64,000 nucleotides of DNA from Bacillus sp. F19 (GTDB lineage Bacteria; Bacillota; Bacilli; Bacillales; Bacillaceae): positions 2,878,001 to 2,942,000 of the forward strand of contig CP085710.1 of assembly GCA_023823795.1 (NCBI GenBank), read 5' to 3'. The translations under genes were made by a program, and so were the position numbers. The notes under the pieces were generated by a model, which searched no databases, was not told the DNA's origin, and worked only from the letters and a program-made list of their open reading frames with translations. Below, one piece after another: positions 3,784 to 51,824 of the stretch. How positions within the stretch are numbered: the stretch's first letter is position 1; the number at the start of each line of letters is the position of its first letter.

Positions 3784-3960
3784 ACTATTTATTTTTGAAT
3801 TCGTAAATAATTCAAATTAATCAGATATAATAAAATGCATGTAAAATCCACCACTTTCATCCTATTCAGAGCAATTATAATAATTGTTAAATATATCCCA
3901 ATTAAAAACAATCTTCGAATTTATTCAATAAGCCTTGCTCTTTTAAATGGCCCAATTCAT

Positions 3961-4068
3961 TAAGAAACGCGCATTTCTTGCTCAAGAATGCGCCCGGTTG
4001 TAGAAGATCATTGCTTTAACCTTATGATAAGCACCCTTTAGTTTAAGTGTAATATTTCACAATCTTTT
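3961..4068. repeat. Dispersed hairpin element with GCGCCCG tail and GCACCC motif
   Basis: In the 364-base gap between genes, a stem AAGAAACGCGCATTTCTT-like segment is followed by TGCGCCCGGTTGTAGAAGAT (3989-4008), and then by a 38-base block (4031-4068) that recurs with four or five differences at 5647-5683. The same GCGCCCG-type tail recurs elsewhere in the window (51873, 57036, 63444). No gene is visible here. Confidence 0.5.
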
Positions 4069-4131: not shown

Positions 4132-5094
4132 CTACCCATTACACTGAATATTTTTAATTTGTAATAGTGTATTAAAAAACAAGTCATGTTGATCAACCAT
4201 TGTCATATGTCCAGCATTAGGTATTAAATATAACTTTTTATGCGGAGCATTGATTCTGTTAAAGTGTTCTTCTGCAATAACATAGGGAATCTGCCAGTCA
4301 TTACTGCCTAAAATATAATATATAGGTATTTTATATTCTGATGGCTCCGAATTTATATCAAAACTTCCTAAAAAATCAACTAATTCTCTGTTAGCTTTAG
4401 CCCCTTTTATCATCGCAGAAATATCTGATAATTTAAAAACAGGACTCGAAAATATCATTTTAAATGTAGAAAAATTCATCTTCAAAGTAAAATTATATTT
4501 ACCTTGAAGTTTACGTAATTTTAAACATTTTTTTTGCCATTCATTATCAAGTTTTTCTCCTGGATATTCACCTATTGCCTCTAACTGTTTTAGAGATTTC
4601 TTATCGTTTGATTATAAAATTAATTCCTTAACTTTTTCATAGCCAACACGCTCATTTTCGAGCATATTTATAATTTGTCCTACCCCAATATAATAATCTG
4701 CATCTTCTGGATATCGCTTGATAAAGATACTACCTAAAACACTTCCCCAAGAATGACCAAGTAAAATTATTTTATTTCTATTATATTTTTTCTTTAGATA
4801 TTGAATAATTTCAAACAAATCCTTTAAAAGCAAATCAATTGTCGGATATTTATCTGGATTCATAGTAAGAGTTTTTCCAGTTCCACGTTGGTCCCAATGA
4901 ATCACTGTAAAAATATCTTCCCATTTTTTTTGAAAGGCGTGTGCAAAAATGGATCCAGCACTGCCGGGTCCTCCGTGCAAAAATAACATTACTGGGTTTT
5001 CAAGATTTGTACCAGAATGAAACAGATATTGATTTATCCCATTGATTGGTACGTATTCCTCAACATAAATTAATTTTTTTGACATATTTTTCAT
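4132..5094 (-). pseudogene. Alpha/beta hydrolase (proline iminopeptidase-like), split by one stop
   Basis: The frame runs through 320 residues with the HGGPG oxyanion-hole motif, DQRGTGKT and the nucleophile elbow GHSWGS in the N-terminal half, and the C-terminal NAGHMTM histidine motif, all typical of the prolyl aminopeptidase branch of alpha/beta hydrolases. A single TAA at 4612-4614 interrupts it. The stretch from 4486 to 4611 stays open in the same frame and reads as family sequence (KKSLKQLEAIGEYPG), so nothing else is damaged. GGAGG precedes the ATG at 5094. Either a nonsense pseudogene or a base-call error. Confidence 0.75.
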
Positions 5095-5883: not shown

Positions 5884-8800
5884 ATGAAGAGAATAAAGAG
5901 AAAGATTTTTCAAGCTGCAACTGTGCTTATATTAGCCAGCAGTAGTATATTGGGTTCTTCGATGATTACCCAAAAGCCGACGTATGCTATAACGAGTGAA
6001 AATATAGCAGAGAAAATTATGCAATCTTTAACCGATGAACAAAGGGCTGCATTGCAAAACTTAAATTCCACAGAAATAAAGACTGGACTGCAATTATCAG
6101 ATGATGTGGACTTAACGAGTGAGGAAGATGTAACGGTTATTGTTGAATTCAAAGAACTTCCAGCAAAGGTAGTTCAACTAGTAGAAGCTTCTAAAGGGGA
6201 AACCATTTCGTTAGAGAAGGCCAAAGAAAAGGTTGAAAAGTCACATTCACTTTTTAAAAAGGATTTACAAGAAAAAGTAGGAAAAAAAGTGAAATCTAAT
6301 AAAGATAATTTTGAAATTAAATTTACTTATCAGAATGCATTTAACGGTGTAACGTTAACACTTCCGGCTAATCAAATTAAGAAATTGCTGGAAATGGATG
6401 AGGTCAAAGCTGTTTTTAGTGAGAGAAAAATACAAATAAAACCACCAGCACCAATTGTGGAAGAGAAAGAGCAGACCAAAGTTGATAGTATTCCATTTTT
6501 AAAGATTGATCAATTACACAAGGAAGGCTATACCGGAAAAAATATTAAGATTGGTGTAATCGACACAGGTATTGATTACAATCATCCTGATTTAAAGGAT
6601 GCTTACAAAGGTGGATATGATTTTGTTGATAATGATAAAGACCCAATGGAAACTACATATGCCCAGTGGAAAGCAACTAGAAATTCTGAATTTTTTAACG
6701 GAAATCCGTATTACACTTCTCACGGCACTCATGTGTCAGGTACAATTGCCGGCCGAGCTAAAAACGATTCAAATTATAAAGTAATTGGAGTTGCACCTGA
6801 ATCTGATTTATACGTTTATCGTGTGTTGGGCCCATATGGTTCAGGTTCAAATACTGCCGTTATTGCCGGAATAGATAAATCGGTGGCAGATGGAATGAAT
6901 GTGATCAATCTTTCGTTGGGTTCTTCTTTAAACAATCCATTAGAAGCCACTAGCTTAGCAATCGATAATGCTGTATTAAGCGGTGTGACAGCTGTAGTAG
7001 CAGCAGGTAACTCTGGAGATAATGGTATGTACACCCTAGGTTCTCCTGGTGCAGCAGCACTTGCATTAACCATAGGGGCAAGTTCTGTTTCTACCAAAGT
7101 CACGACATTTGCGAGTGAATTTGTAGCAAATGGCAAAGAAACAGAGAGTACCTTACAATTGATGACCAGAACCTGGACGGATGATTTCTCGAACCTTTCT
7201 GGTAAAACATTCGATGTTGTCAATGTAGGCGAAGGTGGAGCAACCGATTATACAGGAAAAAATGTTCAAAATAAAATTGCTTTAGTCGCACGTGGAACTA
7301 ATGCTCTGATTGATAAAATGAAATATGCAAAGCAAAACGGGGCAGCAGGTGTCATCATATACAACAACATTGCAACAGAAGGACAAATTCCTTTTTATCT
7401 GGGAGAAAGCAACGATAATATTCCAGTATTCTCTATGACAAATAAAGACGGTTTGGCCGTCAATGATTTATTCACTAATGGTACGCCTAGTGTTACATTT
7501 GGGACCCTTGGACAGAGTGAAATTCCTGGTGATGAATTAGCTAGCTTTAGCTCTAGAGGGCCATCTGGTACATTATATGATATTAAACCGGAAGTGACGG
7601 CACCAGGTGTATCGGTCTTATCAACCGTACCTTCTTATATTAACGACAAAATTAATTTTACTTATTCCTCTGCATACACGAGGATGTCAGGTACATCCAT
7701 GGCCACTCCTCATGTTGCTGGAATTGCGGCGTTGCTGTTACAAGCACATCCTAAATATTCACCTGCAGATGTGAAAACAGTCTTAATGAATACAGCTGAT
7801 CCTTTAAGAGGTCAATATAGTGTGTTTGAAGTAGGGGCAGGAAGAGTAGACCCTTATGAAGCGATATATTCTACTACAGAACTAGCCGTTCAAGACGAAA
7901 CGCCATATATTAAAAATAATGTAAAAGAAATGATGAATGAACAAACAGGTGGCCTTAGCTACGGTTTTATCCCAATTGATGCGAATGATATCACAAAAAC
8001 AACGAATCTATTAATCATGAACCATAGTGATAAAATGGAGAAGTATAACATTTCGGTTGAGTATAATGTTGGAGTTCGTGGATCCTTAGATCCCAAGGAA
8101 AACGGTGTGACCTTAGTATTGCCTAAGAATGTTAAAATTAAAAAGAATAGTCAGGAAAGCATACCTGCCTCATTGTTTATTCCAACAACAGCTAAAAAAG
8201 GCACGTATGAAGGATATATTCAAGTGGTGGATGAAAAGGATCCAGAACATCAATATCAAATTCCATTTGGTTTCCGTCTAGTGGAAGAAGGTTTGGAATA
8301 TTTCAGAGTCTTTTCACCAAGTATCGCACCTAATCGTCAGCAAAGTCCTTATAGTGTTAAAAGTACGGATTTAGATTTCAGACTAAATTCACCGATGAAA
8401 ACATTGGATTTTATTTTAGTAGATTCTAAAACAAATAAAGATTTAGGTTTAATCAGAACCTTTGATGTATCTGGCGCGGGAATTGATATTGATTATTACA
8501 TTCAAAGTGGTTTTGCCGGAAGATATTTTCCTTTCACAGGAAATGCGAAAAAACCAATTGGATATACTTCTGTATTAGCAGCGGATGGATTATATAAAAT
8601 GAAAGTAATTGGTACAAATCTGGATGGAAAGCAGTATACAAAGACAGATCAAGTGTATATTGATGATAGTATTCCAACCTTCAAATTAGATGATACAAAT
8701 GCAGTGCCTAAAGGTGAACTTCCATTTGTGGAATTGGCGGCTGGACAAAAAACAGTTACATTATCAGGAAGCGTAATCGATAAGGAAGCTTATGAAATGG

Positions 8801-46733: not shown

Positions 46734-47050
46734 TTAAATAAAAGAATTGGTTCTAATAGAATATGATTTTATGACTTCCCTGCCGTTTTGTTCTCTTTTA
46801 GATACCCGGTAAAAGAACAGCTCATAAACAACAGGAACCACGATCAACGTCAGCAAGGCAGATGAAGTAAGACCGCCAATGACGGTAACGGCCAATCCCT
46901 TTGAAATTAGTGTCCCTGATGAAGTGGTTAATGCAAGCGGGATGAGAGCTGCGATAGTTGCAAATGCTGTCATGAGGATCTGGCGCAGTCTCGTTTTCCC
47001 TGCTTTAACATCTGCAGACACGGTTTGCACATTATCATATATTCCAAAAC
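46734..47050 (-). pseudogene. RND efflux pump, C-terminal remnant (SwrC/AcrB-like)
   Basis: The minus strand reads KAGKTRLRQILMTAFATIAA, LIPLALTTSSGTLISKGLAV and GLTSSALLTLIVVPVVYELF, the highly conserved end of RND permeases such as SwrC. The preceding 900 or more residues are absent. The beginning of the open frame (MLRFLILCFGIYD) is not homologous and marks the deletion edge, about 100 bases before tatA. Confidence 0.7.
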
Positions 47051-47172
47051 ACAAAATTAGAAATCTTAACAATTTATTAACGGTGGCTTAACACATTTTC
47101 TCTATCATTAGACAAGTGCCGCGACCAGCTGTTGTTGCTAATACAGGATTTTAATAAAGGAGAGAAAATGAA

Positions 47173-47352
47173 ATGATACAAAACATCGGAATTCCAGGGC
47201 TAATTCTTATTTTAGTCATTGCACTTATTATTTTTGGTCCATCTAAACTCCCTGAAATCGGACGTGCTTTCGGTAACACGTTAAAAGAATTTAAAAATTC
47301 GACGAAGGATTTAGTATCTTCGGACTCTAAAAAGGAAGATGAAAAAATTTAA
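47173..47352 (+). CDS. tatA: Twin-arginine translocase TatA
   Basis: A 59-residue TatA protein: N-terminal helix [20 protein letters not shown], then [19 protein letters not shown] (amphipathic helix with the FGPSKLPE motif) and an acidic-basic tail. It would form the Tat channel for folded exported proteins. AAGGAG stands about ten bases upstream. It lies directly before the ruined tatC and the Tat-signal phosphoesterase, an order like tatAd-tatCd with phoD in B. subtilis. Too short for most gene finders. Confidence 0.9.
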
Positions 47353-47360
47353 ATTTCGGA

Positions 47361-47856
47361 TTGGGAAAAGGGATATATGCTCTTACTATACCGTTAGCTG
47401 CATACCATGTTTGGCGATTTGTTTTGCCTGCCCTTCGTGAGCATGAAAGAAAAGCAACCTTTATGCTAATTCCCGCACTATTTTTGCTATTTTATATCGG
47501 AATTTCCTTTGGCTATTTTCTTGTTTTGCAGGAGAAGGATTTCAGCAATTTTATACTTCGGAAAGTACTTTAGTTTTCTAATTAGCTTGACCGTTCCTTT
47601 TGGAATCTTGTTTGAACTGCCTATTGTCATTCTATTTTTAACAGCTATAGGAATAATATATCCTCAGATGTTAAAGAAATCCAGAAAAATTGCTTATTTT
47701 GTGATTCTCATAACGTCTGTGCTAATTACTCCCCCAGATTTAATATCAGACATACTCGTATTAGTTCTGCTGATATTAAGCTATGAAATTAGCATTACTT
47801 TATCCGCCTTTATCTATCGTAAGAAATTACAGAAGACGGAAATTTTTTCTTCATGA
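47361..47856 (+). pseudogene. tatC: tatC pseudogene, N-terminally truncated and frameshifted
   Basis: The first frame carries YHVWRFVLPALREHERKATF and FLLFYIGISFGYF; the second continues KYFSFLISLTVPFGILFELP, then LITPPDLISDILVLVLLILS and YRKK, all TatC landmarks. The first two helices, with the signal-peptide binding site, are missing immediately after tatA, and an internal deletion with frame change separates the two parts near 47560. Export by TatA in this locus would need another TatC. Confidence 0.85.
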
Positions 47857-47907
47857 ACAGAGAAAGTCTATTTATAAACCATATGAGATAAGAAGGATGA
47901 GATAAAA

Positions 47908-50115
47908 ATGAACGTATCACCAATGAATCGAAAAAATTTTTTAAAAATGTCAGGTGGCGTAGCTGGCTTATTCTTCCTAAGTCAATTTCCGATAAAAGTC
48001 GACGCGTCTTCATGGAAAAATGAAGATTTCTCATTTGCAGTGATTGCGGATACTCATATTGATCCATACTCACCACACAGAAGTGAGTATATTAAAAAGA
48101 TTTTTTCCAGCTTTCAATCCAAAGATATTCCTTCCTTCGTTCTTCATTTAGGCGATTTAATAGAGGCTGGTCTCCCAGAAGAATATCAAGAATTTCATCG
48201 TTTAATTCCTGAGAATTATCGAAATCGATTATATGCCATTAGGGGAAATCATGAAGTAAGATGGGACGAATGGGCTGGAGAACTTTTTCATGACGTGGTC
48301 GGTAAATCACAATATTCCTTTGATTTCGGTGGAATTCATTTTATTGCTTTAGATCCTACCCAGCTTCTTCAGGAACCAGGATTTTTTACGAAAGACCAGC
48401 TAAATTGGCTTGAGAAAGACCTTAAGTCTATCGGACGAGAAACCCCAGTTGTACTGTACTTGCATTATCCAATTGGAGATAACAATTATTATATATCCAA
48501 TGAAGAAGCTCTTTTTGAAATGATTGAGTCCTATAACGTTCGGTTGATTTTAAGCGGCCATGTTCACAAAGAACAAATGTGGTTGCAAAATGGCTGTCAT
48601 ATTTTCAGTCTTCCTGCTGCAAAGGATGCACCTGTGTTTTTCTGGGTAGAAAAAAAGACCATTGATAAACAGCCTTTATTATCAGTTTACCATGCAGGCA
48701 TTAATGAAGAGGGTATTCAAAGTCGAACGGTTCTGACCGAGATTCCCCTTACAGGAGCAAGACCTGCAGAACATGAAAAGCCAAAGGCTATATTATTTCA
48801 ACAAAAGCATAAATCTTCAGAAGGTGAATTAAAGGTTATTTTGGATCCTCGAACAAAAGCAAAAGAGGTTTTATATCAATTCTGGCCTGACCATAAATAT
48901 GCCGGAAAGGATGATGGTAACTGGGAAAGCCTAAATCAAGTAGGCAATTCTTCACTTCGCTTTGAAAAAATCATAGATTTGCATTCAATGCCGATAGGAA
49001 AATACAGATTACAGATCAGAGTTAAAAATGAACGGGCCGAATGGTGGGATACTTCAAAGACTATTCAAATAGAAGATCCTCACGGTACATCGAGATTAGA
49101 ATGGCAAGAAGATCTACTAGCACCAATTCAAGCTAATTTAACAAGTATATCTTCTTCAAATCTAGTTATTGCAGCAACAACAGCCGGAAGCGTTACAGCT
49201 ATCTATCAGAATAACGGGAAAGAAAAATGGTCGAGAAAACTAAATGAACCGATTTATTCACAGCCAGCCTTAAATAATGAGGAAACCGATATCTACGTTG
49301 GTACATCAGATCACATGGTTTATTGTATTCGTACAAGTAATGGTGAAACAGCATGGAAAAGTAAAACGCCAAGTCCCGTTCTGGGCAACATTTATTATGA
49401 TAATGGGGAACTAATCATTCCATCGGGACATCATATCGTTTTAATGGATGCACAAACTGGAAAAATAAAATGGTCAACAGAAGTTAGCGGTTTTACTGCT
49501 GGGATGCCAACCGCCGATGATAAAGCCATTTATTTTGGAGCAGGAGACGGCAAGGCCTATGCATTGGATAGAATCAATGGACAAGTAATATGGGAATCTA
49601 CCATTCTGATAAGAGAAACACCATATAAAACGTTAATATATAGTCCATGGGCAACAAAAGCAACAATCGTTCCATCAAAGGAAGGGAAAAAAGATCTTGT
49701 TTATGTTTCGAATGTTTCGAATACATACGCTCTTAATCGCCATACTGGAAATATCGAGTGGAAATTTAAGGGTGGTTTTCTCTATTCCGCGCCACTCATC
49801 TTAATGGAAAACACTATGGCAGTTTTAGCAGATGAATGGGGAAAAGTTAACGCTATTGATCCTTATTCTGGTAAACTGCTTTGGCAAACAACAACAAAAC
49901 AACGCGTATTTAATGCTTCACCAGTTAAAGCTCAAGGAGAAAAAGTCTATATTTCTGGTGTAAATGGCTTACTTACGGGGCTGGATTTGAAGAATGGAAG
50001 TATCATTGATGAGTATCATTTTTCTACGGACTATGTTTACTCTACACCAATTGTTCAAAACGGACGAATCATCCAAGCTGGACAAGATGGGATTGTGCAA
50101 GCAATAAGGATATAA
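47908..50115 (+). CDS. Tat-exported metallophosphoesterase fused to PQQ-like beta-propeller
   Basis: A 735-residue protein. The N-terminus MNRKNFLKMSGG is a twin-arginine-like signal (R-K instead of R-R). The metallophosphatase domain follows with VIADTHID, HLGDLIEAG, IRGNHE, YLHYPIG and LSGHVHKEQ (residues about 40-220). After a Fn3-like linker, the C-terminus (about residues 400-735) has repeated PQQ/YvrJ-type blades (AVTAIYQNNGKEKWSRKL, VYCIRTSNGETAWKSK, YALDRINGQVIW, YALNRHTGNIEWKF). It probably hydrolyses a phosphoester outside the cell. The tatA neighbour supports Tat export. Confidence 0.88.
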   Translation: MNVSPMNRKNFLKMSGGVAGLFFLSQFPIKVDASSWKNEDFSFAVIADTHIDPYSPHRSEYIKKIFSSFQSKDIPSFVLHLGDLIEAGLPEEYQEFHRLIPENYRNRLYAIRGNHEVRWDEWAGELFHDVVGKSQYSFDFGGIHFIALDPTQLLQEPGFFTKDQLNWLEKDLKSIGRETPVVLYLHYPIGDNNYYISNEEALFEMIESYNVRLILSGHVHKEQMWLQNGCHIFSLPAAKDAPVFFWVEKKTIDKQPLLSVYHAGINEEGIQSRTVLTEIPLTGARPAEHEKPKAILFQQKHKSSEGELKVILDPRTKAKEVLYQFWPDHKYAGKDDGNWESLNQVGNSSLRFEKIIDLHSMPIGKYRLQIRVKNERAEWWDTSKTIQIEDPHGTSRLEWQEDLLAPIQANLTSISSSNLVIAATTAGSVTAIYQNNGKEKWSRKLNEPIYSQPALNNEETDIYVGTSDHMVYCIRTSNGETAWKSKTPSPVLGNIYYDNGELIIPSGHHIVLMDAQTGKIKWSTEVSGFTAGMPTADDKAIYFGAGDGKAYALDRINGQVIWESTILIRETPYKTLIYSPWATKATIVPSKEGKKDLVYVSNVSNTYALNRHTGNIEWKFKGGFLYSAPLILMENTMAVLADEWGKVNAIDPYSGKLLWQTTTKQRVFNASPVKAQGEKVYISGVNGLLTGLDLKNGSIIDEYHFSTDYVYSTPIVQNGRIIQAGQDGIVQAIRI

Positions 50116-50573: not shown

Positions 50574-50840
50574 TCCTTTCTTAAATGATCTGCTATTTAC
50601 TTTTTCATATATGGGATATTACAAAAATATTCTTTTATTGAAAATTTGAAACAAGGATTATTTCGTATCTAGTAATTTACGTTATTAGCTTGATGGGCAT
50701 GTGGTCCAACCCCATTATAGTCAAGGTACTTAGGATTCTATATACATGAAACAAAGTTCAACTGTTTATATGTGGATTGTAAGGTTAAGATGTAATCAAA
50801 AAGAAAACTCGATTGCGATTTTTGTTGCTGCCATATAGTT

Positions 50841-51483: not shown

Positions 51484-51824
51484 TTATATTCTTCTATCTT
51501 GCAACGATTTTTCATGCTCCCTAACCAGCTTATAAAATGTCGTCTTTTTTACCCCTACTTCCTGCATAGCCTTCACAGCTGTCATCTCCCCTGATTTCCA
51601 CCGATCATAGGCCTTTTTAAACTCTTCCGTAACAGTAGCTTTCGGTCGGCCAAAAGCTGCTCCACTTTGCAAAGCCACAGAATATCTCCTTTACGGATAA
51701 CTCGTTTCAATAATTGGTACTGAACTCGATTGAAATCTTTTCCACTCTGTTTATCTAAAAAGATGTCTCGTTCATCGACTCCTATTTTTTTGATGGCTTC
51801 TAATTGTCGACCTTCATTAAACAT
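51484..51824 (-). pseudogene. Serine recombinase (resolvase), internally deleted
   Basis: The N-terminal frame reads EGRQLEAIKKIGVDERDIFL, then DKQSGKDFNRVQYQLLKRVI and RKGDILWLCKVEQL, the resolvase catalytic half. The C-terminal frame reads SGAAFGRPKATVTEEFKKAY and AMQEVGVKKTTFYKLVREHE, the Hin-type DNA-binding end. The central residues between them, about 60, are missing and the frames differ. The catalytic serine region upstream is also absent. A Tn3/Tn552-type remnant. Confidence 0.75.

Follow-up and report, generated by a model that had tools for sequence, protein, structure and literature searches.

A tatA gene beside a broken tatC and a metallophosphoesterase gene, behind a phoX-type promoter in Bacillus sp. 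F19

Introduction
How could a protein with a twin-arginine translocation (Tat) type signal be exported once the tatC gene beside it has broken down? The question is raised by a locus in a 64-kb stretch of DNA from Bacillus sp. F19 (contig CP085710.1, positions 2,878,001 to 2,942,000; the whole stretch is called the window here), where an intact tatA is followed by a tatC relic and by a gene for a metallophosphoesterase with a propeller domain (PE). The window lies in a genome (G000) of 5.59 Mb, in two contigs (C1 and C2) and rated 100% complete, whose genus we take to be Metabacillus; positions between 46734 and 51824 are coordinates within the window. Here tatC has lesions, a phoX promoter is fused to what is left of its cassette, other TatCs are encoded elsewhere in the genome, PE is conserved, and homologues of PE carry twin-arginine (RR) signals. 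We consider it moderately probable that phosphate starvation turns on PE and that the protein leaves the cell by Tat, with TatC provided in trans.

Results and Discussion
Loss of tatC and phoX from one cassette
Lesions were read from a DNA alignment of the tatC relic with intact cassette paralogues: phoX-tatA-tatC at C1:4285 kb of the same genome (L020) and the like cassettes of two further genomes (L136 in G045, L143 in G050). The relic lies in two frames, one (47361-47573) matching positions 69-119 of the TatC model (E=5.9e-15) and the other (47509-47856) positions 129-206 (E=2.6e-20). Its start and first ~230 bp have been lost with part of the tatA-tatC intergenic stretch, ~31 bp have been deleted internally, and a single base shifts the frame. 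The three remaining pieces were 76-90% identical to the TatC of L020, the closest relative of the relic, and the window TatA was 95% identical to that of L020. Of a two-component TatAC cassette, the intact tatA was present and an intact tatC beside it was absent. The original prediction had described an intact tatA leading into a tatC without its first helices and with an internal frame change, and had seen in them a cargo-linked Tat pair that lost its TatC; the description held for both genes, with three lesions in all, and the alignment supported the reading (Table 1). A frame change is the usual sign of a read error, but three separate lesions exclude a single such error as the cause. Sequencing or assembly error in tatC is extremely improbable, and we rejected it: two of the three lesions are deletions, phoX has been deleted too, and in four other genomes an intact tatC is likewise absent from the corresponding place.

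The loss of phoX is recorded upstream of tatA. By blastn, the stretch at 47037-47112 was 76.9% identical to L020 and 83.5% to the PE locus of C. citreus (L017), and it was also aligned with L017, L018 (the PE locus of S. globispora), L020 and L143. Since this stretch matches the phoX promoter and the one at 47114-47157 matches the phoX end, phoX, which stood between this promoter and tatA, has been deleted. In the alignment the surviving parts, from promoter through phoX tail and tatA to tatC relic, follow the same order as in the intact L020.

Within the promoter lies a Pho-box-like element, which we scored against the TTAACA-type hexamer consensus of Bacillus PhoP. It was the only site scoring at least 17 on either strand of the window, and at a period of 11 six sites (at four places) reached 16 or more, compared with none or one for each of the seven other periods. 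The PhoP-binding-type repeats of a Pho regulon member are present upstream (17/18, 11-bp period), as a sequence match to this consensus. The sites ahead of PE in C. citreus and S. globispora scored 16/18 and 17/18, respectively, and have a spacer in common. A passage of PMC4415409 gives 11-nt direct repeats as the design of Pho boxes and names B. subtilis as similar. Other tat cassettes of G000 scored 17 (L022, L144), 16 (phoD538), 15 (L129) and 14 (L128), and six reached only 12-13 (L021, L023, L024, L130, L127 and L019); Pho-box-like sites are not general among the tat cassettes of this genome. Pho control of tatA and PE would be consistent with this promoter.

Table 1. Features of the tatA-PE locus, in window coordinates
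Feature	Position	Strand	Match
Promoter region, homologous to the phoX upstream region of L020 and the PE upstream region of C. citreus (L017)	47037..47112	+	
Pho-box-like element: three TTAACA-type hexamers, 11-bp period	47066..47093	+	17/18 positions
phoX 3'-end remnant	47114..47157	+	92.7-93.2% over 41-44 bp to the phoX end in L020, L136, L143
tatA, intact, 59 aa	47173..47352	+	PF02416 E=6.4e-23
tatC relic: start and first helices gone, internal deletion, extra frameshift	47378..47856	+	
PE: metallophosphoesterase and BamB/PQQ-type propeller, Tat-like N-terminus MNRKNFLK, 735 aa	47908..50115	+	

The phosphoesterase and its relatives
The PE frame is open over all of its codons and matched the Metallophos (E=5.9e-20) and PQQ_2 (E=4.5e-35) profiles, in agreement with the intact phosphoesterase and PQQ-type propeller first proposed. 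The PhoD family (PF09423) gave no match at E<=0.001, and we rejected PE as a PhoD relative. The catalytic half matched the PDB entries 2zo9/3d03 (E=1e-8), named there as phosphohydrolase and presumably the glycerophosphodiesterase GpdQ. The C-terminal half matched BamB by sequence (E ~4e-24), below designed propellers (1.6e-31), and by fold (PDB 3q54, Foldseek E=7e-28); the AlphaFold model, whose catalytic half is weak (mean pLDDT 71), was used solely for this propeller match. PE resembles GpdQ in its catalytic half and BamB in its C-terminal half, and differs from both by their fusion, by its Tat-like signal and by a middle beta-rich stretch. An 853-aa protein of the same genome (L026 3435-5996) joins MetallophosN, Metallophos, Big_7 and a PQQ propeller, without a Tat motif in the scan, so the Metallophos-PQQ_2 fusion is not unique to PE. 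The propeller had been called odd for a PhoD-like protein, a description that found no support, as PE has no PhoD match and L026 is a second fusion in the genome.

A scan of genome contigs found two relatives of PE at 88%, those of C. citreus and S. globispora (genome G463). At E<=1e-60, PE occurred in 1/81 genomes of its family and 1/397 of its order (even draw), each time G000 itself. In the family of G463 it occurred in 4/193 genomes: C. citreus, S. globispora and, at 49-50%, G579 (L159) and G615 (L160). The PE frame was open in all five genomes found, and the metal-site motifs DTH, GD, GNHE, H186 and GH.H were invariant. The ratio of nonsynonymous to synonymous rates (dN/dS) of PE was 0.14-0.16 against L018 and L017, the three being close copies, and the synonymous rate (dS) was 0.38-0.44 between members of different families; together with the patchy distribution, this dS suggests that PE spread by horizontal transfer. 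We rejected PE as a plasmid gene, because none of the 99 matching plasmid records covered 80% of it.

No intact tatC stood between promoter and PE in the five PE genomes. This interval held tatA and the tatC relic in the window, a tatC tail alone in L017 (more eroded in L018), tatA alone in L160 and neither tat gene in L159; L159 and L160 align on both flanks of the tatA stretch. Two perfect TTAACA repeats are common to L159 and L160, whose Pho-box scores were 14 and 13, respectively.

The signal motif was NRK(N/E)FLK in PE of the window, L017 and L018, and IDRRDFLK in L159 and L160. A phosphatase cargo is present at the locus, with an arginine-lysine (R-K) signal, and the RR form occurs in the outgroup homologues. 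Since homologues at 49-50% have canonical RR, the PE family does carry Tat-type signals; the condition that would have refuted the original prediction, a phosphoesterase family that never had them, therefore does not hold. Beside intact tatAC, PhoX also has R-K (NRKKFL in L171/L020, L172 and L173; DRKKFL in L177). It was found in four of the seven PhoX with tatAC within flanks of ~1.5 kb, and in none of three other PhoX with a motif, a count that leaves out two PhoX matches without one. The sample is too small for a link between R-K and TatC in PhoX to carry weight, and we set that link aside.

tatA without tatC across genomes
At E<=0.1, G000 had 13 TatA matches and nine TatC matches, three of which are intact tatC genes. 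Relics of tatC were found at five of its loci, namely the window, C1:4576 kb (with one internal stop), C2:131.9 kb, C2:185.4 kb and C1:701.8-704.6 kb. Ten of the 13 tatA are without an intact tatC; five of the ten stand beside a relic and eight adjoin a Tat-signal phosphatase. Such cassettes probably depend on TatC encoded at another locus. The FG hinge is kept in all 13 TatA. The original prediction proposed that PE either uses another TatC of the cell or is no longer exported, and other TatCs do exist, with three intact tatC elsewhere in G000. Its account was incomplete: phoX has gone from the cassette too, the Pho-box-like promoter remains, and several more cassettes of this genome have tatA and no tatC.

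In G000, G045 and G050 together we counted 29 tatA and 11 intact tatC, every one of the latter adjoining a tatA, which leaves 18 of the 29 tatA without an intact tatC. Of these 18, 13 adjoin a Tat-signal phosphatase of the PhoX, PhoD or Metallophos kind (8/10 in G000, 3/5 in G045, 2/3 in G050). The L130 tatA is two genes away from a Tat-signal multicopper oxidase, no Tat cargo was found at L127, none appeared in the motif scan among the genes listed at L134, and L089 and L091, with short flanks, were not inspected. Two more tatA stand beside a broken tatC in S. globispora (L161, L162), and a Priestia plasmid is alike, with an annotated tatA and a tatC match in three pieces under which a gene table that omits pseudogenes lists no gene. 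Among 81 family genomes, TatA matches outnumbered TatC matches in 38, equalled them in 42 and were fewer in one, with fragments included in the TatC counts. G000 had the most TatA (13; next 9 and 9). As a TatA without a working tatC beside it and with other TatC in the cell, the window locus belongs to an already known kind, the orphan TatA (TatAc/TatE kind).

Of the 81 genomes, G065 had the most TatC matches (nine, with nine TatA matches). Contig C2 of G000, a plasmid, holds two near-identical copies of tatA with a tatC stub (L023 4117-6900 and L024 4153-4522), each followed by a different Metallophos protein with an N-terminus common to both. A near-mode plasmid search with L024 matched 49 records, an IS6 transposase being named under the match in 17 of the 20 matches listed; the same search with L144 gave no match.

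Selection on tatA
Only one cassette, PhoD776/781, gave a selection test on tatA. Its tatC deletion junction is identical in G000 (L129) and G045 (L132), so tatC was lost before these genomes split. Indels have accumulated in the relic after that, but the tatA frame remains open, with five synonymous and two nonsynonymous changes (one-sided binomial P=0.008, on seven substitutions and with transition bias not corrected). This is suggestive of selection keeping tatA in the PhoD776/781 cassette. Two further pairs count against such selection: the lone-type pair L130/L134, in which 4.5 synonymous changes stand against 7.5 nonsynonymous ones (ratio 0.46) and no relic of tatC is there to date its loss, and L131/L139, with four nonsynonymous changes and no synonymous one. 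Other pairs were set aside, having a working tatC on both sides or being saturated or nearly without synonymous change.

G050 has a tatC scrap with no tatA found beside it (L142, C1:4945 kb, 4550-4669), like one behind PhoD776 in G000, and the PhoD776 cassette seems to have been lost there. On C2 of G050 (L140), a partial TatA-like stretch at 7662-7811 (54%, E=4.5e-9), possibly a tatA relic, accompanies a whole tatA at 3797-4018. From L142 without tatA and L140 with a partial second TatA, it follows that tatA can be lost too.

Export of PE and the alternatives
The ancestral cassette may have run Pho box-phoX-tatA-tatC-PE, an order intact in no genome examined. Deletions would then have taken phoX and broken tatC, so that the phoX promoter came to stand ahead of tatA and PE. 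PE would probably be transcribed when phosphate is exhausted and would probably hydrolyse phosphodiesters outside the cell as a phosphate-scavenging exoenzyme. It would leave by the Tat route with TatC in trans. The most likely partner is the TatC of the phoX-tatA-tatC cassette at C1:4285 kb, the best candidate because it is the closest paralogue and because this cassette has a PhoX with R-K and a related promoter. The local TatA may add to TatA dosage or act as a cargo-linked partner.

Several observations weigh against this reading or parts of it. The tatC relic had a dN/dS of 0.10-0.16, as low as those of PE and of the window tatA (0.074 against the L020 tatA; 10 synonymous and three nonsynonymous by NG86). 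Because all three values are low, the three genes diverged mostly while working; tatC would therefore have died recently, and the window tatA may have stayed whole simply because too little time has passed. Selection on the window tatA after the loss of tatC could accordingly not be shown, the ratio of the relic being just as low. At about a quarter of the length of tatC, tatA is a smaller mutational target, so that an intact tatA at five loci with tatC relics would by itself cause little surprise. Three of the five genomes (L017, L018 and L159) have kept PE with no tatA beside it, and a local TatA is thus not needed to keep it. The poor tolerance of lysine in the arginine pair (PMC7317946) counts against easy export by Tat. 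C. citreus and S. globispora have R-K PE, and their compared TatC loci are at most 59% identical to the TatC of L020. The phoX promoters scored only 14-15 of 18 (14 for intact phoX of G000); among random 350-base stretches, a background that includes the window site itself, 7% reached 14, the score of phoX and L159, 32% reached 13, that of L160, and 73% reached 12.

Of the alternatives, we consider it unlikely, though worth weighing, that PE has left Tat, with R-K serving Sec instead (or neither route well) and the nearby tat genes, tatA included, as decaying junk. It would account for the contrast between the R-K of PE in three genomes and the RR of both outgroup homologues, for the loci with no tatA beside PE and for a recent tatC relic, and a passage of PMC7317946 has lysine in place of arginine in the Tat pair as poorly tolerated. 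That source bears out the original view of R-K as an unusual variant, though PhoX next to intact tatAC shares it (4/7), which speaks against a departure from Tat. So do the F-L-K part of the motif, invariant in all five PE, and the hydrophobic cores of the three R-K PE (maximum KD13 1.44-1.52), which fall inside the range of other Tat-type signals scored in these genomes (1.08-2.19). Still less probable is a dead end, in which the whole locus came by recent horizontal transfer and is decaying, PE and tatA being unused. The rarity of PE, found only in its own genome in the family and order searches, would fit, as would truncated neighbours (the tail of a transporter, and recombinase-like frames that look broken by eye). 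Yet PE is open in five genomes with low dN/dS among the three close ones, its metallophosphatase motifs are invariant, and the Pho-box-like site is kept. Export of PE by Tat, with TatC in trans, remains the reading we prefer.

Comparison with known Tat systems
The window was first likened to B. subtilis, with tatAd-tatCd and PhoD in the same arrangement, but the order differs: tatAd-tatCd lies downstream of phoD there, according to a passage of PMC3988878. What phoD-tatAd-tatCd, as described in parts of PMC3988878 and PMC3827258, would share with the window is phosphate-limited expression (here a likely one) and a phosphatase-linked Tat pair. There phoD is upstream and tatC works, whereas in the window a Metallophos-propeller cargo is downstream, a phoX remnant is upstream and tatC is dead.

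DUF839 is, we assume, the same as PhoX. In some TatCd branches of Bacilli DUF839 replaces phoD, as a passage of PMC3827258 has it. The intact paralogue L020 is a cassette of this kind (PhoX PF05787 E=2.2e-114), from which the window copy differs in having lost phoX and tatC and in carrying PE.

Orphan TatA proteins offer nearer parallels. TatAc of B. subtilis is reportedly active with TatCd and TatCy. It has no TatC of its own and works with Tat components of other origin, and in a passage of PMC3988878 it restores transport in E. coli without TatA/E, below the wild-type level. G000 has ten such tatA, with relics and phosphatases beside them as counted above. TatA2 of Campylobacter jejuni is likewise an additional TatA, its gene sitting in the operon of a cargo (nap), and differs from the TatA of G000, which keep the FG hinge, in being without two key residues (PMC4148689). 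By the same account, TatA2 was not specific for NapA despite its linkage to nap, and TatA1 alone sufficed for PhoX; C. jejuni TatA2 may thus serve as a warning for the modular reading that follows.

As a tentative reading, less likely than not, we suggest that Tat in these Metabacillus genomes may be becoming modular, with few shared TatC cores and many cargo- or condition-specific TatA, each with its phosphatase; tatC would be shed repeatedly as interchangeable and TatA kept as the cargo partner. Related to this is the thought that R-K signals may have become acceptable to one lineage of TatC. Three tatC-less cassettes of G000 (window, L022 and L144) stand behind Pho-box-like sites of 17/18. 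A targeting role for the PhoD-specific TatA of B. subtilis, put forward in a passage of PMC13186574, would explain why TatA rather than TatC is kept. No report of tatC loss with tatA kept was found in the open-licence literature, which was searched without full-text reading. The locus offers a natural test of which Tat component is specific for a cargo. With 13 tatA and three intact tatC in one genome, TatA's own specificity for cargo or condition in a two-component Tat can be tested, and the R-K signals of PE and PhoX are natural material on the strictness of the arginine pair.

Neighbouring sequence
At the promoter junction, the C-terminal tail of an AcrB-type resistance-nodulation-division (RND) transporter (46734-47072, minus strand; ACR_tran positions 950-1020 of 1021), another truncated gene, abuts the Pho-box-like promoter. 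Beyond PE, two short overlapping frames on the minus strand (51484-51824) look by eye like a broken serine recombinase. Between them and PE, 60 bp at 50645-50704 are 98% identical to L128 6823-6882, beside another orphan tatA, where the stretch lies at the end of a 457-aa frame that is transposase-like by eye.

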